Below, piece after piece: positions 47,646 to 60,518 of a stretch of 64,000 nucleotides of DNA (position 1 is its first letter; every line of letters begins with the position of its first letter). Position numbers and translations under genes: made by a program. The stretch spans positions 124,001 to 188,000 of the forward strand of contig CANJUF010000001.1 of assembly GCA_947477745.1 (NCBI GenBank), written 5' to 3'. The notes below the pieces were generated by a model. It saw only the letters and a list, made by a program, of their open reading frames with translations, made no database searches and had not been told where the DNA came from. Source of the DNA: Sphingomonadaceae bacterium. Lineage in GTDB: Bacteria; Pseudomonadota; Alphaproteobacteria; Sphingomonadales; Sphingomonadaceae.

Positions 47646-48839
47646 ATGGAAATTCCGGAAAATGTCCCGGCTGACCGGGTCATAGATCTGGACGTTTATA
47701 ACCCAGCGCCCGAACTCGATGATCCGGCACAGGCCTGGAAGGCGCTTCATGCCCGCGACGAGGCGCTGCTCTGGACGCCGCGCAATGGCGGGCACTGGGT
47801 GGCGACGCGCGGGAGCTCGATCCGCGCGATCCTCGAAGATCACGAGAGCTTTTCATCGAACGTGCTGATGGTTCCGAGGGAGCGCGGCCTTTCCAATCTT
47901 CTGCCCACGGCTGCCGACCCGCCGCGCCACCGCCCGTTCCGGATGGTGATCCAGCAGGCCTTTACGCCCGCCTCGGTCCGCAGCCGCGAGGAGGGCATCC
48001 GCGCACTCAGCCGCGATCTCATCGCCCGGATCGCGCCGCTTGGGCAGGCGGATTTCATGCGCGATTTTGCCTCACGGCTGCCCACCGGCGTGTTCCTGCA
48101 GATCGCCGATCTTCCGACCGAGCATTTCGACCTGCTCTACGGCTGGATGGAAGCGGTGATGCGGCCCGACGGTTCGGCCGATCAGGGTGAACTGATGCAG
48201 CGCTTTGCCGATTACCTGTTGCCGATTCTGACCGAGAGGAAGGCCAACCCGGGCGGCGACGTGATCAGCGCGATTGCCACGGCCCGGATCGAAGGGCAGC
48301 CGATCACGCAGGACGATGCCGTCAACATGGCGACGACGCTGCTGCTGGGCGGGCTCGATACGGTGGCCGCGCTGATGTCGTTCGTGTGGGATCATCTGGC
48401 GCGCGATCCAGCGCTGCAGCGCTTGCTTGCCGACAGCCCCGAGCGCATCCGCGACGCGGTCGAAGAATTCTGCCGCCGCTTTCCGGTCGGCACCAATACC
48501 CGCATCACGGCGCGCGACACCGAAATCGACGGGGTGACGATCCACAAGGGCGATCTGGTCACCACCCCGCAAATCCTCCATGCGCTCGACGAGCGCGAAT
48601 ATCCTGACCCGCTGAGGTTCGACATCGACCGCCAGACCGGCGGCTATTCGTCGTTCGGCCACGGTGTCCACCGCTGCCCCGGCTCGTTCCTCGGCAAGAT
48701 GGAACTGCGCATCGCGCTGGAGGAATGGCTTGCCGCGATCCCCGCGTTCGGGATCGCGCCGGGCGCGCGTGTCAGGGTGACGCCGGGCGTGACGGCGGGC
48801 ATATTCAGCCTGCCGCTTACCTGGCCGGCAGCTGCCTGA
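47646..48839 (+). CDS. Cytochrome P450
   Basis: 'LLGGLDTVAALMSF' I-helix, 'EFCRRFPVG', heme-binding 'FGHGVHRCPGSFLGKMEL'. Confidence 0.96.
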   Translation: MEIPENVPADRVIDLDVYNPAPELDDPAQAWKALHARDEALLWTPRNGGHWVATRGSSIRAILEDHESFSSNVLMVPRERGLSNLLPTAADPPRHRPFRMVIQQAFTPASVRSREEGIRALSRDLIARIAPLGQADFMRDFASRLPTGVFLQIADLPTEHFDLLYGWMEAVMRPDGSADQGELMQRFADYLLPILTERKANPGGDVISAIATARIEGQPITQDDAVNMATTLLLGGLDTVAALMSFVWDHLARDPALQRLLADSPERIRDAVEEFCRRFPVGTNTRITARDTEIDGVTIHKGDLVTTPQILHALDEREYPDPLRFDIDRQTGGYSSFGHGVHRCPGSFLGKMELRIALEEWLAAIPAFGIAPGARVRVTPGVTAGIFSLPLTWPAAA

Positions 48840-50203
48840 TGGGGTTCGATGCCGAAGGCGCGCGGGGCATGGCCGATGTCTGCGCCATCCTTGCCGGAGA
48901 CACGGTGCCGCCGCCGCCCGAGTATTTCGACAGCGGCAGCGAGAACCCCGGCAGCGAGCCGGTTTCCAAGCACTGCATGATCAGCCCGGACTATGCGCGC
49001 GCCGAGGCGCGGCACCTGTGGCGCAAGGTGTGGCAGATGGCCTGCCGCGAGCGCGCCATCCCCGAGGTCGGCGATTACACGGTCTATGACATTCTCGATC
49101 AGTCGGTGATCGTGGTGCGCACCGGGCAGCAGGAATTTTCCGCCTATCACAATGTCTGCCAGCACCGCGGCATCCGGCTGGTGACCCAGGCCGGAAAGCT
49201 CGGCGAGCGCGGCCAGTTCATGTGCCCGTTCCACGGCTGGTGCTACGACCGGCAAGGCAAGCTCAAGGCCCTGCCGCGCGCATGGGACTTCCCCTCGCTC
49301 GATCCTGCGAAGGTCGCGCTGCCTGCGCTAAAGGTCGATTGCTGGGACGGCTGGGTCTTCGTCAATTTCGATCCCGATGCGGCGCCGCTCGCCGACTACC
49401 TTGGCGACATGCTGCCGCGCCACTTCGCGCTTTGGCCGCAGGCCGAGCGGCACCTCGTCAGCCACGCGGCCAAGATCATCCGCTGCAACTGGAAAGCCGC
49501 CTTCGAAGCTTTCCTCGAGGTCTACCACGTGCCCGTCACTCACCCGACGGGCGGGCAGTTTGCGACCGACATCGCCACGAAATACGACGAGTTCGGCTCG
49601 CATGGCCGGATGCATCTGCTGAAATTCCACGCACCCAAGGGGGTTTCGGAGCAGGATCTCGTCGATCACTGGATCGGCATGGGACTGGCGGCGGGCAAGG
49701 ACGATATCCCGCAGGTTCCGCAGGGCCGCCGCGCGCGCGGGGTGCTCGCGGACTATCAGCGTAATCAATATTCCCGGCGGACCGGGCGCGATTTCAGCCG
49801 GTTCAGCGATGCCGAGATGCTCGATACGCTCGAGTACTTCGTGTTCCCCAACTTCGCGCCCTGGGGCGGCTTCGGCACCAACCTTGCCTACCGTGTCCGT
49901 CCCAACCGCGAAGATCCCGACTCGTGCCTGTTCGAGGTGATGGTGACCGCGCCGGACCCTGCTGGCGAGAAACCGGCCGATGCGCCGCCGACCCTGCTGG
50001 CCGAAGGCGCGTCGTGGATGGAAGCGCCGGGCATGAGCGGCCTAGGCAAGATTCTCGACGAGGACGTGGCGAACCTCGAACGGGTGCAGCAGGGCCTGCA
50101 TTCGGACGGCTACCACACGATGCATTTTGCCCGCTATCAGGAGCGGCTGATCCGCCACTTGCACCGCACCGTCGATGCGTACCTGGCGGCAGGCGAGAGC
50201 TGA
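48839..50203 (+). CDS. Aromatic ring-hydroxylating (Rieske) oxygenase alpha subunit
   Basis: 'CQHRGIRLV...CPFHGWCYDRQGKLK', 'EAFLEVYHVPVTHP'; 1-nt overlap with the P450. Confidence 0.93.
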   Translation: MGFDAEGARGMADVCAILAGDTVPPPPEYFDSGSENPGSEPVSKHCMISPDYARAEARHLWRKVWQMACRERAIPEVGDYTVYDILDQSVIVVRTGQQEFSAYHNVCQHRGIRLVTQAGKLGERGQFMCPFHGWCYDRQGKLKALPRAWDFPSLDPAKVALPALKVDCWDGWVFVNFDPDAAPLADYLGDMLPRHFALWPQAERHLVSHAAKIIRCNWKAAFEAFLEVYHVPVTHPTGGQFATDIATKYDEFGSHGRMHLLKFHAPKGVSEQDLVDHWIGMGLAAGKDDIPQVPQGRRARGVLADYQRNQYSRRTGRDFSRFSDAEMLDTLEYFVFPNFAPWGGFGTNLAYRVRPNREDPDSCLFEVMVTAPDPAGEKPADAPPTLLAEGASWMEAPGMSGLGKILDEDVANLERVQQGLHSDGYHTMHFARYQERLIRHLHRTVDAYLAAGES

Positions 50204-50204
50204 A

Positions 50205-50534
50205 TTGGTCAGGGTCACCTTCACCGATCAGCTCGGCCATTCGGTCTCTATCGACCATCCGCCGGAATGCAGCCTGATGGAAGCAGCGGTCGAGAACGAA
50301 ATCACCGGCATCGAGGCGCAGTGCTACGGAGCAGCCGTGTGCGGCACCTGCCATGTCTATGTAGGTCCGCAGTGGCTCGAGGCGGCAGGCGAGAAAAGCG
50401 AATGGGAGCAGGCCATGCTCGATGCCCTGCCACTCGCGCGCGCAGAATCGCGGTTGTCCTGCCAGATCGTGCTTTCAGACCGGATCGACGGCGCAGGCTT
50501 TATCCTGCCCGAACGGCAGGAGTCGCTCGAATGA
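50205..50534 (+). CDS. 2Fe-2S ferredoxin
   Basis: 'CYGAAVCGTCHVYVG...RLSCQIVL'; likely TTG start. Confidence 0.92.
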   Translation: MVRVTFTDQLGHSVSIDHPPECSLMEAAVENEITGIEAQCYGAAVCGTCHVYVGPQWLEAAGEKSEWEQAMLDALPLARAESRLSCQIVLSDRIDGAGFILPERQESLE

Positions 50535-51490
50535 CAGAACAACTCCGCTTTGACGGGCGCGTGGCGCTGATCACCGGGGCTGGGCGCGGAATGGGCCGCG
50601 AGCATGCGGAGTTCCTTGCCGGGCGCGGGGCAACCATAGTGGTTGCCGACCTTGGCACCGCCACCGACGGCAGCGGCAAGGACGAAGCGGTGGCAGTGCA
50701 AACTGTCGAGGTCATCCGTTCCGCTGGCGGCAAGGCGAGCGCGTGGACCGGCGATCTCGCCACCGAAGCGGGCGCGCGCGGCGCGGTCCGCCATGCTCTT
50801 TCCGAGCATGGGCGTCTGGACATTATCGTGCACAACGCTGGCTTCTCGCGCAGCGTGCCGTTTGCACAGGCCAAGATCGCTGACCTCGACGATCTCTATG
50901 CCATCAATACCCGCGCCGCCGCATTGATGGTCAGCGAAGCCTGGCCGGCGATGACCGCGCAGGGGCACGGCCGCATCGTCTTTGTCGGATCGACCGCAAT
51001 GTACGGGATGTCCGATGCGGTCTATTATTCAGCGATCAAGGCGTCCTATCTCGGCCTGACCCGAAGCCTCGCCGAAGCGGGGCGGGATCACGGTATCGCC
51101 GTGAACCTGATCGGGCCAAGCGCCGTCAGCCGCCTTGCCGACACGATCGAGGAATCCGAATTCAAGCGCTGGTTCTTCGAGACCATGAAGCCCGAACTGG
51201 TAACCGCGCTGGTCGCCTATCTCGTGCACGAGGATGCGACGGTGAACGGAGAGAGCTTTGCCGCTGCCGGCGGGCGCGTAGCGCCGATCCTGATGGGCGA
51301 GGCATATGGCTTCATCGACCGGGAATTGACCCCCGAGGGGATCGGCAAGGCGATCGCCCGGATCCGTGACCAATCGAGCTTCGAGCCATTTGCCGATTAT
51401 GTAACTTCGGCGGCGCGGTTGATGGAGCTTCTGGGCTATTCGCCGAGCCAGCCGCTCGGTCCGCTTACTTTTCATGAGCCGGACCGCTAG
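50531..51490 (+). CDS. SDR family oxidoreductase
   Basis: 'ALITGAGRGMGREHA', 'IIVHNAGFS', 'YYSAIKASYLGLTRSLA'; ATGA overlap with the ferredoxin. Confidence 0.94.
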   Translation: MTEQLRFDGRVALITGAGRGMGREHAEFLAGRGATIVVADLGTATDGSGKDEAVAVQTVEVIRSAGGKASAWTGDLATEAGARGAVRHALSEHGRLDIIVHNAGFSRSVPFAQAKIADLDDLYAINTRAAALMVSEAWPAMTAQGHGRIVFVGSTAMYGMSDAVYYSAIKASYLGLTRSLAEAGRDHGIAVNLIGPSAVSRLADTIEESEFKRWFFETMKPELVTALVAYLVHEDATVNGESFAAAGGRVAPILMGEAYGFIDRELTPEGIGKAIARIRDQSSFEPFADYVTSAARLMELLGYSPSQPLGPLTFHEPDR

Positions 51491-51496
51491 CGCGCC

Positions 51497-52492
51497 TCAA
51501 ACCAGCCGTTCGATAAGCCAGTAGCTCGCCGTCATGCCGATGCCGTAAGTCGAGATGCGAATTGCCGGTGCGACGGCCACAGCGGCAATGCGCCTCACCC
51601 CCTCGATGGCGGCAAGACAGGCGAAAACGATCAGCAACTGCCCCGCCTCGACCCCGAGATTGAAGGCAAGAAGTGCGGCGGGCACGTCGCTTTCGGGCAG
51701 GCCTATCTCGCGCAGCGCGCCCGCGAAGCCGAAACCGTGGAGCAGCCCGAAGACGAAGGCGGCGATCCACGGCGCACGCTCCGTCAGTCCCTTTCGGTCA
51801 GGCCTCTGCTTCACGATCTCGAGCGCGAGAAACACGATCGACAACGCGATCAGCGCCTCGACCGGCTCCTGCGGCAGGCCGATCAATCCCAGCGTCGTCC
51901 CCACCAGAGTAATCGAATGGGCCGCAGTGAAGGCGGTTGCGGCCTTGGCGACTGCCCATGCACGGCGCAGCAGCAGGACCAGTGCAATCACGAACAGCAG
52001 GTGGTCATAGCCCAGCACGATGTGCTCGATGCCGGTCACGAAATAGGTGCGGGCAACCTGCCATGAACTGGCCCGGGCGCGGATCTCGGTCGTTGGCTCG
52101 GCCGCCGTCAGCCGCGAGGCCTGGACCGGACGGCCGAGCGGCGCAACCCGCACCAGGACGTCGCTGCGGGCCGCGGCAAGACCGGACAGGCCGATCCGCG
52201 ATCCCGCGACATTGCCGGTGCAGGTCATTTCGTAGCGCGATACCAGCGCCCGGTCGGCGATTTCGCGGCGCGGTTCGCCCCCCGCCTTGCACGGCTCTGG
52301 CAGAACCGGTTCAATCCGCGCAGGCATTCCGGCAACCAGCGGCGCCTTCCAGACCAGCGACCAGCGCGCCGCATCCTTCTGCGTTAACTCGAGGTATCCG
52401 GGCCGCAGCTCGTCAGCCGCGCCGGGCGCGGGAAGAGCCAGCAGAAGCGCGCCGAGCAGCGCGTCAAACCAGCGCCGCAAAACCGTGCTCAC
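51497..52492 (-). CDS. HupE/UreJ-like membrane protein
   Basis: 'GIEHIVLGYDHLLFVIALVL', 'FTAAHSITLVGTTLG', 'FGLLHGFGFAGAL', 'FNLGVEAGQLLIV'. Confidence 0.9.
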   Translation of the reverse strand: MSTVLRRWFDALLGALLLALPAPGAADELRPGYLELTQKDAARWSLVWKAPLVAGMPARIEPVLPEPCKAGGEPRREIADRALVSRYEMTCTGNVAGSRIGLSGLAAARSDVLVRVAPLGRPVQASRLTAAEPTTEIRARASSWQVARTYFVTGIEHIVLGYDHLLFVIALVLLLRRAWAVAKAATAFTAAHSITLVGTTLGLIGLPQEPVEALIALSIVFLALEIVKQRPDRKGLTERAPWIAAFVFGLLHGFGFAGALREIGLPESDVPAALLAFNLGVEAGQLLIVFACLAAIEGVRRIAAVAVAPAIRISTYGIGMTASYWLIERLV

Positions 52493-53334
52493 GGCTTTTC
52501 AATCGTGATTGCATAGCTATCGAGCAGCGCCTGATAAGCAGCGGCTTCGCGCGCTTCGATGGTAGCGGCGCGCCAGTCGTTCTCGACTTGCTGGCGAACC
52601 TCGGCGAGCCGGGGCGGTCGCGGCGCACTCGCGGCGCGCAGGCGCACCAGATGCATGCCATAGCCCGAAGGCACCGGCCCGCGCCACGCGGGCGAAGGCT
52701 TGCCCGCCAGAACCGCCAGTTCATCGGCAAACTGGTCGCCGAACTCGCGTTCGATCTCGCTTCGGCTCGCGCGCTCCATCGCGCGGGGCACCGAAAGCGG
52801 ATCGCCCAGCTTTTGCCAGTCGGCACCCTGGCCAAGCCGAGCAAGCACATCCCTTCCGCGTTCGCGGGCTTCGGCTGGATCGTGCTGGCCAAGATAGACC
52901 TGATCGAAGCTGATCACCGCGCTGCCGCCATATTTCGACGGATTGGCGCCGATCATCTTCTGCAGTTCGGCATCGCCCGGCTCTTCGCTCTCGACGCTGG
53001 AGCGGGCGAAGTATTCCATCTTCTGGCGCAGCCGCTGGCGGATCACCTCGTCTCCCTGATCGAGACCGAGCCGCCGCGCCTCGCGATAGTAGACCTCATC
53101 CTTGATAAAGTCGCGGATCAGGCCGTCTACCTCGCGCGGACTGGGCGCCCGCCGGAAGGTCTGGGCGAACTGCGCGGCAAGGCCTTCGACCTGCGCCCGC
53201 TCGATGACGATCGTGCGACCTGCTGGATCGACCTCGGTGCCGCGCCAGGCGAAGAACACGAAGATCGCAAGACCGCCCAGAAGGAAATGGACCAGCGGCT
53301 CGCGGCGCAGGCCCCACAATCGATCCCCTATCAT
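52489..53334 (-). CDS. Membrane-anchored PpiC-type peptidyl-prolyl isomerase
   Basis: N-terminal TM 'LVHFLLGGLAIFVFFAW', SurA/PpiC-like 'AWRGPVPSGYGMHLVRL'. Confidence 0.85.
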   Translation of the reverse strand: MIGDRLWGLRREPLVHFLLGGLAIFVFFAWRGTEVDPAGRTIVIERAQVEGLAAQFAQTFRRAPSPREVDGLIRDFIKDEVYYREARRLGLDQGDEVIRQRLRQKMEYFARSSVESEEPGDAELQKMIGANPSKYGGSAVISFDQVYLGQHDPAEARERGRDVLARLGQGADWQKLGDPLSVPRAMERASRSEIEREFGDQFADELAVLAGKPSPAWRGPVPSGYGMHLVRLRAASAPRPPRLAEVRQQVENDWRAATIEAREAAAYQALLDSYAITIEKP

Positions 53335-53342
53335 CACCGGGA

Positions 53343-55235
53343 TCAACCTTGCGGCTTGTACCAGATCGGCGAAGTGTAGGCGCGCTCCTGATGGACCTTC
53401 TGGATATCCTTGCCCAGCTTGGCGCCATGCCGCAGCGCATCGTAAAGCACCCAGCGCGGCGTTGGGATTTCGATCACGCGCAAGTAGTAAAATGCACTCT
53501 GCGCCGGGTCGAAAGCCGGATCGCGCCACACGCTTGTCAGTTCGGCAGCCCCGATCGTGTTGGCGTATGTTGCCTTCGCCTCATCCACGGTATTGCCCAC
53601 CGCAGGCACCTTGCCCTGCGCGTTGACCTTGCGCTTGCCCATGTCGCTCCACACGACATCGTAGACCTTCTCGTGGCTGTTGCCGCTGGCATCGATCCAG
53701 CCCTTGATGACCTGCACCCGGTCGAGATTGGCGCCGATCGGATCCTTGAGCGCCGAAACGATGAATGTCGGCGCGCGTCCCGGCCGCTTGTGCAGTTCGC
53801 CGCCCATTGGCACCCCGCGGCCATAGCCTTGCCTGACCCAGTCGCCCTTGAGGTCGCGCCGCGTGAAGTCCCAGCCGCCGAACAGGCGCACGCGCATGCG
53901 CGGCCCGGTGGTTGCATAGACCTCGCGGCGCATCATCGCGTCGAACAGGGCCTCGCGCGTGTTGGACGTGGCCCAGACGGCGGCGTAACCGCTCGCCAGG
54001 AAATTCCAGCCGATCCGTCCTTCGCCGCCCCCAAGGTTCATCGGCTCCATCGCGCGGATGGAATTCGGCTCGTTGCCGGTGTGCTTGCCGAGAAAATTAT
54101 CGTCGTCGGCCGTCGCGAGCGAAGTATGGCTGTCAGTCGATCCGATCATGCCCAGCCGGTAAGGATTGACGCCGGTCCGCGCCTCGATCTCCAGCCCGCG
54201 CTTGAGCGCCTCGCGCACATATTCCCCGGCGAACATCGCATTGCTCTTGGGCAAGGTGAAAGGCAGGTTGCCAAGCTCCCAGCCGGCAACGCCATAACCG
54301 GCAAATTCGTCATTGGGCGACAGGAATGGATGCGCCTCGCTGTCGCCCTTGATCTGCGTCGCCTCGACCAGCGGCTCGCGCGAGATGCGGCGGCGCGCGT
54401 AAGCGGCAGTCATCGGCCCGCCATCCGGGCCGACCAGTTCGAACATGAGGCCATTGGACACGTTGCTGTTGTGCGGAATGGCAAGCGCGCGGCCGCCAGT
54501 CGTGCGTTCGTAGCGGTCCATGTAATCCCACAGCTTGTCGACGCTGGCGCCGCCGAACTGCGAACCGAAGGGCAGCACCTGGTCGGCCTTGTCCTTGCCG
54601 TCCCGGAAGATGACCACGCGGTGCAAGTTGTTGCCCTTGGGCTGCAGCGAATATTCGAAACCCATGAAAGCGGTGAACTTGCCCGGCTGGTTATACCGCT
54701 CGACGATCGCGGTGTGCTCATGCCAGATGCCGCGCGCAGATTCCTCGTTGCCGAGATCGTAATAGGCTTTGGGGATGGTGCCGTTGGCGCCGTGCACCAT
54801 CAACTCGCCGATGATCTTCTGCGACTCCCGTGGCCCCTGCTTCATCAGGTCCTGCCAGTGCCGCAGGACCGGATCGGTCACCTGCGACGCGGGCATATCA
54901 TAGAGCCGCCTCGTCGAGCCAAGGCTGTCGCTGTGATCGGCGATCACCAGGAAATCGAGCGGCCGGCCGAGCTGCGCCGCAAGGCCGGTGGACGATGTGA
55001 CTTTCTCGCCCCTGGCGAAACGCAGCGCCGCCTCGGGGCCGAGCCGGTTGCCAAACGCGAAGGCGTCAAGCGAATTGGAGGTGTGAAGGTGCGTATCGCC
55101 CCAGAAGACCTGTTCGGGATAGGCCGTCTGCACGGCGGGCTGCTTGCCGGTCACGCTCGCCACAGCCACGCTTTGCTGCGGTGTGGGCGACGCCAGCGCC
55201 GCCATGGCCAGAGCCGCGCCTGCCAGTTTCTTCAT
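53343..55235 (-). CDS. DUF3604 protein, exported, PHP-like metal motifs (copy 1)
   Basis: Signal peptide; 'FWGDTHLHTSNSLDAF', 'LDFLVIADHSDSLG', 'ALAIPHNSNVS', 'GMIGSTDSHTS'. Confidence 0.92.
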   Translation of the reverse strand: MKKLAGAALAMAALASPTPQQSVAVASVTGKQPAVQTAYPEQVFWGDTHLHTSNSLDAFAFGNRLGPEAALRFARGEKVTSSTGLAAQLGRPLDFLVIADHSDSLGSTRRLYDMPASQVTDPVLRHWQDLMKQGPRESQKIIGELMVHGANGTIPKAYYDLGNEESARGIWHEHTAIVERYNQPGKFTAFMGFEYSLQPKGNNLHRVVIFRDGKDKADQVLPFGSQFGGASVDKLWDYMDRYERTTGGRALAIPHNSNVSNGLMFELVGPDGGPMTAAYARRRISREPLVEATQIKGDSEAHPFLSPNDEFAGYGVAGWELGNLPFTLPKSNAMFAGEYVREALKRGLEIEARTGVNPYRLGMIGSTDSHTSLATADDDNFLGKHTGNEPNSIRAMEPMNLGGGEGRIGWNFLASGYAAVWATSNTREALFDAMMRREVYATTGPRMRVRLFGGWDFTRRDLKGDWVRQGYGRGVPMGGELHKRPGRAPTFIVSALKDPIGANLDRVQVIKGWIDASGNSHEKVYDVVWSDMGKRKVNAQGKVPAVGNTVDEAKATYANTIGAAELTSVWRDPAFDPAQSAFYYLRVIEIPTPRWVLYDALRHGAKLGKDIQKVHQERAYTSPIWYKPQG

Positions 55236-55371
55236 CGCCGTTCTCCTCTCCCGTGGACCGACTATCGCCCGAGCTACCGCCGCTGTCCATCCCCGCGCCT
55301 TGCGTTGACGCAAGGGCAGGATCGTGCACATTGCCGCAATGCCGGCGGCGAGACCGGCCCGGAGAGAAGAT

Positions 55372-57324
55372 ATGAAGGCATTGCCCTGGATCGCAGGCCT
55401 AGGCGGGGCGGCTTTGCTGGCTGCGGCGGCCCTGATGCAGCTGAATGGCGATCCCGCGAAGGCGGCTGAAGTGGAGCCGCCAGACTGGGCGGCCGCCGAA
55501 GGTGCGGTTCCGGCCAATCCCCTGAAAGACGCCTATTTCGGCGAGCTTCACCTGCACACCAACCATTCGTTCGACAGCTTCATCTTCGGCAACCCTTTGG
55601 GGCCGGACGAGGCCTACCGCTTCGCCCAGGGCGAGCCGGTGAAATTCTATGGCGGGCAGATGCGCAGGCTCGACCGCCCGCTCGATTTCGTGGCAGTCAC
55701 CGACCATGCCGAGTTCCTCGGCGAACTTAGGCTTTGCACCACGCCCGGCTCCGAGGTCTACGAGACCGAGATGTGCGCCTCGATGCGCGCCAACAACATG
55801 GCCGCATTCTCCAAGCTCGCAACCAGCGTTACCGCGCGCAAGCGCATGGCGGATGTCTGTCACGAAGACGGAGAGCTGTGCGTGGCGACAGCAGATACCC
55901 TGTGGACGCAAGTGCGCCTCACCGCCAACCGCTATTACAAGCCCGGCAAATTCACCACGCTGATCGGCTACGAGTTTTCCGCCAACGCGCCGACGGCCAG
56001 GTTCACCAACATGGACAACAAGACCAAGGCCGACGTGCCCGGTATGCTTCACCGAAACGTGATCTTCCGCAGCGACGCGGTGCCCGACAGGGCCTTCAGC
56101 GCCTATGACGGCACCGGCGAAGATATGCACACGTGGATGGAAGCGAACTGCACCGGCGCCTGCCGGGTGCTCGCGATCCCGCACAACATCAACTATTCGT
56201 GGGGCCGGTTCTTTTGGGACGGAAAGAACTCTGACGGCTCACCGTGGACCAGGGAGATACTCGAGCGCCGCGCCCGGATCGAGCCGCTGATCGAGATTTT
56301 CCAGATCAAGGGCTCGTCCGAATGCATGGCCGGGGTCGGCCTCACTGACGAAGAATGCGGCTTCGAGAACGCGGTGGCCGCTTGCCCGGCAGGCGAGGAA
56401 GACGGCTGCGCCAGCGGCAATGCCTTCGTGCGCACCGGCCTCGTCAAGGGGTTGAAGATCGAAGACGAAATGGGGGTCAATCCGTTCAAGTACGGGATCA
56501 TCGCGGCGACCGATTCGCACAACGGCAATCCGGGCGACACGCGCGAGAGCAGCTATGCCGGACACCTCGGCGGACAGGATTCGACCCTTGGCAAGCGGCT
56601 CGGCTATCTCGACGCGCCCGGACCCGATGGCAGGCACGAGAAGGCGCGCAAGTTCGGCTTCACCATGTACAATCCCGGCGGGCTTGCCGGCGTCTGGGCG
56701 CCGAGGAACACGCGCGGCGCGATCTGGGATGCGCTGCACAGCCGCGAAACTTTCGGCACCTCGGGCACGCGCATTCGCGTGCGCTTCTTCGGATCGTTCG
56801 CTTATCCCGCTGATCTTCATCGCAGGCCCGGCATGCTGACGGCCGCCTATGCCAGGGGCGTGCCGATGGGCGGCGACCTGAAACGTGCGGGCAAGGTCAA
56901 GGCCCCGCGTTTTGTCGTCCAGGCCTTGCGCGATCCCGAGAGCGCACCTTTGCAGAAGATCCAGATCATCAAGGGCTGGACCGAAAATGGCGAGCTGAAA
57001 TCGCGCACATTCGATGTCGTCTGTTCCGATGGGATCAGGCCCGACCTCAGGACCGGCATGTGCGCCGACAATCGGGCTTCGGTCGATATGCAGACCTGCG
57101 AGCCCGCCAAGGGCAAGGGCGCGGCGCAGCTTGCCGCGACATGGACCGATCCCGGTTTCGATGCTTCGAAGCGCGCGATCTATTATGTGCGCGTCCTTGA
57201 AAATCCGACCTGCCGGTGGAGCACGCGCGATTCGCTGAGGCTCGGCGTGCCGCACGATCCGAAATGGAGCGCCGCGATCAGGGAACGGGCGTGGACCTCG
57301 CCGATCTGGTATTCCCCTAACTGA
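55372..57324 (+). CDS. DUF3604 protein, exported, PHP-like metal motifs (copy 2)
   Basis: Signal peptide or TM; 'YFGELHLHTNHSFDSF', 'LDFVAVTDHAEFLG', 'VLAIPHNINYS', 'GIIAATDSHNG'. Confidence 0.92.
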   Translation: MKALPWIAGLGGAALLAAAALMQLNGDPAKAAEVEPPDWAAAEGAVPANPLKDAYFGELHLHTNHSFDSFIFGNPLGPDEAYRFAQGEPVKFYGGQMRRLDRPLDFVAVTDHAEFLGELRLCTTPGSEVYETEMCASMRANNMAAFSKLATSVTARKRMADVCHEDGELCVATADTLWTQVRLTANRYYKPGKFTTLIGYEFSANAPTARFTNMDNKTKADVPGMLHRNVIFRSDAVPDRAFSAYDGTGEDMHTWMEANCTGACRVLAIPHNINYSWGRFFWDGKNSDGSPWTREILERRARIEPLIEIFQIKGSSECMAGVGLTDEECGFENAVAACPAGEEDGCASGNAFVRTGLVKGLKIEDEMGVNPFKYGIIAATDSHNGNPGDTRESSYAGHLGGQDSTLGKRLGYLDAPGPDGRHEKARKFGFTMYNPGGLAGVWAPRNTRGAIWDALHSRETFGTSGTRIRVRFFGSFAYPADLHRRPGMLTAAYARGVPMGGDLKRAGKVKAPRFVVQALRDPESAPLQKIQIIKGWTENGELKSRTFDVVCSDGIRPDLRTGMCADNRASVDMQTCEPAKGKGAAQLAATWTDPGFDASKRAIYYVRVLENPTCRWSTRDSLRLGVPHDPKWSAAIRERAWTSPIWYSPN

Positions 57325-58971: not shown

Positions 58972-60174
58972 TCAAGCCGGATCGAATTCGACGTGGAGGT
59001 GATTGTTCGAGGCATTCTCGAAAATCTCGAAGATGACATCGTATCCGCTTCCGATCTCTGCCTGCACCGATTCGGCGAACTTGCGGCCGACTGACACCAG
59101 AACATTGTTGCCCCGGGAATCAAGCGCACGTCCGTCATAATGGAGCGATCCCTTCTTGTGCGTGGAATCGTTACCCGAGGTTATGACCGGCGTGGGCAGG
59201 TCCATGGTCTTCGCCAGCTTGGCGACTGCGGTGATCGCGATCCCCATGGCAGGGTCGAGCTGCGAGATCTTCACAGCCGCGCTCCTTACCAGCACTCCGT
59301 TGGCGGCAGCCACCGCGTTTCCATCGATCGTCGCGGCTGCCGCGCCAGGCTGCACCGACTTGATGATCACGGGGCCAGCAGCATCGAGCATTTTCAGGGC
59401 ATCGGCGAGTTCTGCGGGATACCTGTTCTTGGTAATGCTGATCAGTTGGTTTCTCTGCCCCTTTGGGAGCTTGGTATTGGCGGCGACCCCCAGCACGTAG
59501 TCGGTCCGGCGGGCATAGATAGCCTCGATCAAGCGGCGGTCGTATTTGGCCGAAGTCCTCGCCTCGCCCTTGTCGCAGGCGTTGACTGCATCGATGAGGA
59601 TGACGGCAGCCTTGCTGTGCTGGACCGCCACCGACCAGCACGCATCGCGCACGCCGTCGTGGCGCGCATCGAGGTCGAGGCCCTTCGCGGCAAGCACTGC
59701 GGCGACTGCGGTGCGATAATGCGTGCGTTCGATGAAGGTATGCTGGGCATCGCCGAAGGCCTGCGTCTGCGCCGCCGCAATTTCTTTCCAGATTCGTGAG
59801 AAATCGGCGGAGCCCGGCGTCGACGCACCGAATCTATCTGCCCAGGGCTTGCCCTCGGCCTTGAGGAAAGCGGTCAATGTCCCCGCGGCCGACGACAGCT
59901 GATAGGTGCCGTAGGAAACTCCGCCGGGATCGGAGACGCCGGTCGAGACCGCTCCCGGTCCTTCCTTGGCGCTTTCGTATTTCTGCGAGAGCGCGCCGAG
60001 CCGGTGCGCGCTTGCGGCGGACGGCGCCGACTTGGGCTTGGCCGGTTCGGGAGCTGGCAGCGGCACCGCCGCTTCCGCCAGATCGCAGGCAAGATCCAGC
60101 GCCTGCACATGCTTTTTGGTAAGACGCCCGCCAAGCAGGATCCTGACGGCATCGAAAATCGGCTTCCTGTTCAT
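58972..60174 (-). CDS. Predicted two-domain cell-wall hydrolase (lysozyme/chitosanase-like plus M15 peptidase-like)
   Basis: 'SDPGGVSYGTYQLSSAAGTLTAFL...' VgrG-related/lysozyme-like region; C-terminal 'STHKKGSLHYDGRALDSRG...NNHLHVEF' M15-like metal motif. Confidence 0.7.
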   Translation of the reverse strand: MNRKPIFDAVRILLGGRLTKKHVQALDLACDLAEAAVPLPAPEPAKPKSAPSAASAHRLGALSQKYESAKEGPGAVSTGVSDPGGVSYGTYQLSSAAGTLTAFLKAEGKPWADRFGASTPGSADFSRIWKEIAAAQTQAFGDAQHTFIERTHYRTAVAAVLAAKGLDLDARHDGVRDACWSVAVQHSKAAVILIDAVNACDKGEARTSAKYDRRLIEAIYARRTDYVLGVAANTKLPKGQRNQLISITKNRYPAELADALKMLDAAGPVIIKSVQPGAAAATIDGNAVAAANGVLVRSAAVKISQLDPAMGIAITAVAKLAKTMDLPTPVITSGNDSTHKKGSLHYDGRALDSRGNNVLVSVGRKFAESVQAEIGSGYDVIFEIFENASNNHLHVEFDPA

Positions 60175-60518
60175 CGGCTCCCAGCCCCCTGTTCGTCTGG
60201 CTTCGAGACAGACCCTTTTCGAAGGCCGCTCCGAAGAACAACTGCACTTGCGAATTGGACTGTTCAAATTAATTCTTCTTAACTGGCAATGTAGAGCAAC
60301 AGTTGAAGTTGGAATGGGGAAGCCGTGTTGGTTGCCATTGCGCCGTTATGGACATGCGCCCGGTCCTGCCTGTTCGCTTGGCGATGGCTGGCGGACCTGC
60401 AAACCGGGACGGATTCGTTTTTCCGCATTCCGCTTGATCGCGGCGCGCAGATGAACGAAGCTGTGCGGCACAGTCTTTGGCGATCCGCAAACAGGGTCGC
60501 AGCGCGGGAGGCGCCGAG

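Follow-up and report, generated by a model that had tools for sequence, protein, structure and literature searches.

What might a HupE-like membrane protein, a parvulin-like protein and two exported DUF3604 proteins do together? This question is raised by a compact locus in a 64,000-nt stretch of a Sphingomonadaceae genome (contig CANJUF010000001.1, positions 124,001 to 188,000; hereafter the window), whose products we call H, P and D (D1 and D2), respectively. In at least nine phyla D is seldom met without P and H, which suggests that the envelope harbors an undescribed system by which D enzymes are loaded or folded. An earlier note, made from the sequence, had described three packed minus-strand genes and a second, divergent DUF3604 gene; on re-reading, its coordinates and strands hold, as do the 4-bp overlap of H and P, the 8-bp gap from P to D1 and the 136-bp spacer (all in window coordinates). 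The genome contains exactly two DUF3604 genes, D1 and D2, both located at this module:

51497-52492, minus strand: H, HupE-like protein with a signal peptide, a periplasmic ZrgA-like domain and a HupE/UreJ_2 membrane domain, 331 amino acids (aa)
52489-53334, minus strand: P, membrane-anchored SurA/PrsA-type parvulin, 281 aa, ATG at 53334
53343-55235, minus strand: D1, exported DUF3604 protein with a PHP-like fold, 630 aa
55236-55371, no strand: divergent intergenic (promoter) region between D1 and D2, 136 bp
55372-57324, plus strand: D2, second exported DUF3604 protein, 650 aa

Gene-neighborhood analysis of DUF3604 across bacteria had been set in advance as the key test of whether these genes belong together, and it showed that the three families co-occur across at least nine phyla. 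Of 80 named DUF3604 loci surveyed in the GTDB collection, 47 contained both P and H, and in one more, P lies where the contig stops. At 47/47 loci P and H were adjacent and on the same strand, mostly with a 4-bp overlap, and gene order assigned by script was D-P-H at 34 loci, P-H-D at 12 and other at one. These 47 loci cover nine phyla (Pseudomonadota, Bacteroidota, Thermodesulfobacteriota, Myxococcota, Verrucomicrobiota, Acidobacteriota, Cyanobacteriota, Campylobacterota and Krumholzibacteriota), and the arrangement is special neither to this genome nor to Sphingomonadales. Clustering of all genes neighboring D, together with a Pfam tally, found no other conserved family, with DUF1214 and DUF1254 recurring weakly near D (5/125 and 4/125).

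The association also held in whole genomes. Among 101 Sphingomonadales, D was present in 27 genomes (plus one fragmentary match) and P in 29, including all 27; the two with P and without D were one whose P has an internal stop and one genome that is 66% complete. The Fisher value for this association was 1.6e-22, or 1.5e-9 after collapse to genera, and these values ignore relatedness apart from that collapse. Of 249 Pseudomonadota, 13 carry between them 16 strong P genes (at least 210 bits; next match 77), and every one of the 16 has a D no more than ~2 kb away, in one case a truncated remnant; D without P occurred as one clear case (G220) and one weak case (G130). In 248 Bacteroidota, the 3 genomes with D were also the 3 with P. 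The profile used to find P derives from P proteins linked to D, but a wide gap separates the scores, and the P gene is nearly confined to DUF3604 genomes. Co-occurrence of D, P and H is not due to chance. At one locus (G257:C12:455144-456335), a P gene lies next to what is left of a DUF3604 gene, truncated and interrupted by a stop, apparently an ongoing loss of the module.

When the fetched D locus showed no P, P was encoded elsewhere in 26 of 31 genomes, the other five all being metagenome assemblies; some of these D loci stop near contig edges, so the count of unlinked cases is an upper bound. Most unlinked P proteins scored 220-345 bits, and seven scored 100-161. A tree of 83 D proteins shows no fewer than 15 changes in the linkage of D to P-H, and in some cells D genes outnumber P-H, as in G371, which has three D and one P. 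Because P is usually elsewhere in the genome when it is not beside D, the P-H pair appears to be a dedicated accessory that works in trans. A search for carriage of the module on plasmids gave one weak match only. On one IMG/VR contig (L120:4791-11769), a solitary DUF3604 gene has a phage GpA terminase gene ~3 kb away and a DNA methylase nearby, and is possibly prophage cargo or host flank.

D1 and D2 match PF12228 (DUF3604, Pfam) over their full length with 787 and 621 bits (cut-off 20.4), and direct reading of both sequences finds export-type N-termini. D2 is a deep paralogue of D1 (34% identity) that retains all motifs, and in the D tree it falls in a supported deep clade of 6 members, all from multi-D loci with P-H. 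Four ordered motifs had already been pointed out; both copies have them, and two further motifs, GxE (E194) and NLHR (H205), can be added, the ligand residues of all six being the same in 97/97 full-length relatives. In D1 these map as follows:

55065-55091, minus strand: motif I HLHTSNSLD (H49, H51, D57), invariant in 97/97
54933-54938, minus strand: motif II DH (D100, H101), invariant in 97/97
54654-54656, minus strand: E194 (GFE), invariant in 97/97
54621-54623, minus strand: H205 (NLHR), invariant in 97/97
54471-54473, minus strand: H255 (IPHN), invariant in 97/97
54126-54134, minus strand: motif IV D368-S-H370, D and H invariant in 97/97

The nine candidate ligands (H49, H51, D57, H101, E194, H205, H255, D368 and H370), invariant throughout the 97 sequences, are arranged along the sequence as in the PHP trinuclear site (H-x-H, D/H, H, E, H, H, D-x-H). 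For eight of them, counterparts in the same order are named for PolX, whose mutagenized ligands run His-His, His, Glu, His, His, Asp-His (PMC6616362). An AlphaFold2 model of D1 from an 83-sequence alignment (predicted local distance difference test score, pLDDT, 92.3; predicted TM-score 0.91) gave as its top Foldseek match in the PDB the PHP domain of RNase AM (7ug9; E 6.4e-4, probability 1.00, TM-score 0.48 by target length), which was also the sole match below 0.001. The predicted secondary structure of the model places the candidate ligands at or near strand ends. Comparison with PHP phosphoesterases, proposed beforehand as a check, thus agrees at the level of predicted fold and secondary structure.

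Sequence profiles were less telling. DUF3604 has no match to PF02811, the Pfam PHP family; the CehA/McbA model NF038032 scored 17.3 bits against D, far below its cut-off of 80, with weak CehA/McbA matches in 8 of 13 D relatives (best E 1e-4); and a sequence search of D against the PDB returned zero matches. Because these sequence-profile links are weak, we call D PHP-like by motif and fold and not by sequence score. The assignment to a PHP-superfamily layout in the earlier note is thus upheld by motif order and by the predicted fold, and not by a profile match to PF02811 or NF038032. D resembles the PHP phosphoesterases RNase AM, PolX, YcdX and Sb-PDE and the CehA/McbA hydrolases in its nine-ligand order and predicted fold, and differs from them in lacking a PF02811 match, in being longer (630 aa) and in having a C-terminal beta-rich half. 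Among these, Sb-PDE is an exported, zinc-containing PHP enzyme from a sphingomonad (PMC5460133).

P scored 26.2 bits against PF13145 (Rotamase_2, Pfam), just below the cut-off of 27. A profile of 20 P relatives matched parvulins in the PDB, best Cbf2 (3rfw, E 6e-13), along with SurA (4e-9) and PrsA. Like these proteins P is extracytoplasmic, and the profile match runs across most of its length; unlike them, it is essentially restricted to DUF3604 genomes and in most cases carries Gln where the parvulin active site, whose location on P we take from general knowledge of parvulins, has its first His. The second His (H228) is invariant, whereas the first is Gln in the window P and in 37/47 P. Since the first active-site His is replaced in most relatives, the sequence suggests that P could act as a chaperone and not as an isomerase. 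Its original description as a membrane peptidyl-prolyl isomerase (PPIase) or folding factor therefore stands as parvulin homology by profile, minus one of the two active-site His residues.

H had been described as a HupE-like protein with His-containing membrane motifs, and its match to PF13795 (HupE_UreJ_2; 165.5 bits, Pfam) and five candidate membrane ligands bear this out; what went unmentioned is an additional periplasmic domain. The AlphaFold2 model (pLDDT 91) consists of a signal helix, a beta domain at about residues 32-136 and a helical membrane domain:

52073-52414, minus strand: H residues 27-140, periplasmic beta domain with Asp at the mature N-terminus, strands 32-136 in the model
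51503-52066, minus strand: H residues 143-330, HupE-type membrane domain with H157, D163, H164, H192 and H252

The two top Foldseek matches of H, with no others reaching a probability near 1, were the apo and zinc-bound structures of ZrgA (8ezw/8f1b; E 4.5e-4 and 3e-3, probability 1.00). The periplasmic domain of H is thus predicted to share the fold of the zinc-binding ZrgA of Vibrio cholerae (PMC9820375) at a sequence identity of 13%, but ZrgA works with an ATP-binding cassette (ABC) transporter and not a HupE permease, whereas in H this domain is fused to a HupE domain. All five membrane ligand candidates are kept in 44 of 48 module H sequences. The mature N-terminal residue (position 27, following a signal-peptide cleavage site judged by eye) is His in 25/48 and Asp in 23/48, including the window H. 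A second HupE in this genome (L036) is without a periplasmic domain.

The closest described architecture is that of the anglerases, reported in 2025 (Nature Communications) as a periplasmic domain plus HupE/UreJ_2 plan for which Cu and Ni binding was measured and metal capture and uptake were proposed (PMC12537917). Ang-1 and Ang-2 resemble H in placing a periplasmic beta-sandwich domain before a C-terminal HupE/UreJ_2 membrane domain, and V. cholerae ZrgA is the nearest solved structure of both Ang-1 (PMC12537917) and the window H. In Ang-1/Ang-2, however, His is the first mature residue in 100% of cases and the linker is at residue ~176, while the module H domain spans ~115 residues and begins with His or Asp. 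With Asp in place of the mature N-terminal His, we do not class the window H as an anglerase. RbAng-1a (9GCE) was not among the matches of H, including those of a PDB sequence search, so direct kinship with Ang-1 is not established. Anglerase genes are reported to neighbor mainly genes of unknown function, and the main text of that paper names neither DUF3604 nor PPIase (PMC12537917).

Departures from the usual H were found in L072 (11752-12825), L073 (4197-6587), L080 (3000-4115) and L105 (3703-5976). The H proteins of L072, L073 and L105 have a common C-terminal domain with a conserved His-rich motif of the H-x-x-H-x-H type and no Pfam match. In L105, from Carboxylicivirga, an ABC/permease pair and a ZnuA protein are encoded between P-H and D; the whole zinc-type cluster (L105:731-8806) comprises an ArsP_1 permease, a DUF1980-like/fasciclin protein, P, H, an ABC ATPase, a MacB-type permease, ZnuA and D.

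The reading we favor, and to which we give about an even chance of being right, is that D proteins are exported PHP hydrolases served by P-H as a dedicated folding and metal-supply pair. D1 and D2 would be Sec-exported PHP-fold hydrolases with a di- or trinuclear divalent-metal site. P would act as a membrane-anchored SurA/PrsA-type chaperone that aids D folding after secretion. The ZrgA-like domain of H would capture a transition metal, most likely zinc and possibly nickel or copper, and the HupE domain would hand the metal on to the inner membrane or through it, allowing correct metallation of D in the envelope. A single P-H pair would serve every D paralogue of a cell, linked or unlinked, and such maturation in trans fits how strictly the families occur together, the constancy of the P-H pair, the fact that this pair persists whatever the linkage, and the several D per P-H. 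The roles in metal supply and folding are drawn from folds and from precedents, namely HupE nickel permeases, anglerases and zinc-containing Sb-PDE, and we count the ZnuA gene between P-H and D in L105 as support for a role of metal. HupE/UreJ nickel permeases and the accessory proteins of nickel enzymes likewise tie a metalloenzyme to a HupE-type permease and helpers, although D, unlike those enzymes, is an exported protein and not a hydrogenase or urease. As first put forward, the locus was an exported metal-dependent hydrolase pair with a metal-handling membrane protein and a folding factor; co-occurrence and the PHP-like fold now back this proposal, while we infer catalysis by D, its folding by P, its metal supply through transport by H, the identity of the metal and the direction of its flow.

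Several observations weigh against this reading. HupE is an importer into the cytoplasm and alone would not metallate a periplasmic enzyme. Four of 48 H (L072, L073, L080 and L105) have lost the HupE ligands or the entire domain while D and P are retained, and without these permease ligands simple metal import by H is not secure. The His at the mature N-terminus that marks anglerases is absent from about half of H, including that of the window, and 37/47 P keep only one parvulin His. Aligned by hhalign, the profiles of D and of CehA-type PHP proteins showed no significant similarity (probability 26%), and the D neighborhoods yielded no substrate clue.

There are three alternatives. D itself could acquire metal, as a secreted PHP protein that binds metal or cleaves chelates and delivers to H, with P folding D or H; the module would then serve metal uptake and not be an enzyme with helpers. 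The ZrgA-like domain and permease in H, the ZnuA and ArsP/DUF1980-type genes beside P-H in L105, and the resemblance of several D per P-H to several binding proteins sharing one permease all agree with this idea, which we nevertheless judge unlikely, given the complete catalytic-type nine-ligand PHP set in 97/97 D, the H variants that lack permease ligands and still keep D and P, and the absence of zinc-uptake neighbors at most D loci. P-H could instead be a metal-independent membrane complex for assembling or anchoring D, with the HupE fold as a scaffold and metal incidental, and here the degenerate HupE domains in four loci that retain P and D, as well as Asp in place of the mature N-terminal His in 23/48, count in its favor; conservation of five membrane ligand candidates in 44/48 H is hard to explain without metal, and together with the predicted ZrgA fold of the periplasmic domain it makes us doubt this scheme. 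That H is a detoxification or metal-sensing module with a regulatory coupling to D, and that D hydrolyzes a phosphorus or ester nutrient outside the cytoplasm, is very improbable even though a different HupE-like gene is the most nickel-induced gene in Sphingobium ba1 (PMC5557971) and the exported PHP enzyme Sb-PDE acts on phosphodiesters, since no regulator is conserved at the loci and the strict P-H-D presence pattern differs from that of resistance genes.

How metalloenzymes that fold outside the cytoplasm are loaded with the correct metal is largely an open question. If P-H does mature D, and only tentatively do we extend the idea this far, it would be a dedicated extracytoplasmic metallation and folding machine acting in trans for an exported PHP hydrolase family in at least nine phyla. 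That DUF3604 is linked almost one to one, in phylum after phylum, with one particular chaperone and one particular membrane protein that captures metal makes this maturation hypothesis directly testable, assigns partners to an uncharacterized part of the HupE/UreJ_2 family and gives DUF3604 its first biochemical frame. Searches of the open literature for DUF3604, PF12228 and HupE with PPIase returned one passing mention, in a Chlamydia transposon table. The module is real and widespread, apparently undescribed, and built from known superfamilies. CT_425 of Chlamydia trachomatis, a conserved 622-aa protein of this obligate intracellular pathogen, is annotated DUF3604 (PMC11925237).

Within the 136-bp spacer between D1 and D2 lies a palindrome, CTTGCGTTGACGCAAG, which we rejected as a regulator site because it occurs once in the genome and is not kept in the 90%-identical relative L040. 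Adjoining the module, window positions 47646-51490 carry cytochrome P450, Rieske oxygenase, 2Fe-2S ferredoxin and short-chain dehydrogenase/reductase (SDR) genes typical of a ring or terpenoid/steroid catabolic cluster, and a Rieske/LigXa-type gene is also found near the module of L040, the nearest relative locus. The P450, Rieske and SDR genes were rejected as partners or as a clue to substrate, since they are not conserved at the loci of relatives. On the other side of the module, a gene at 58972-60267, not obviously in a type VI secretion system locus, encodes a protein whose C-terminal domain is VgrG3-like (PF21277, 149 bits).

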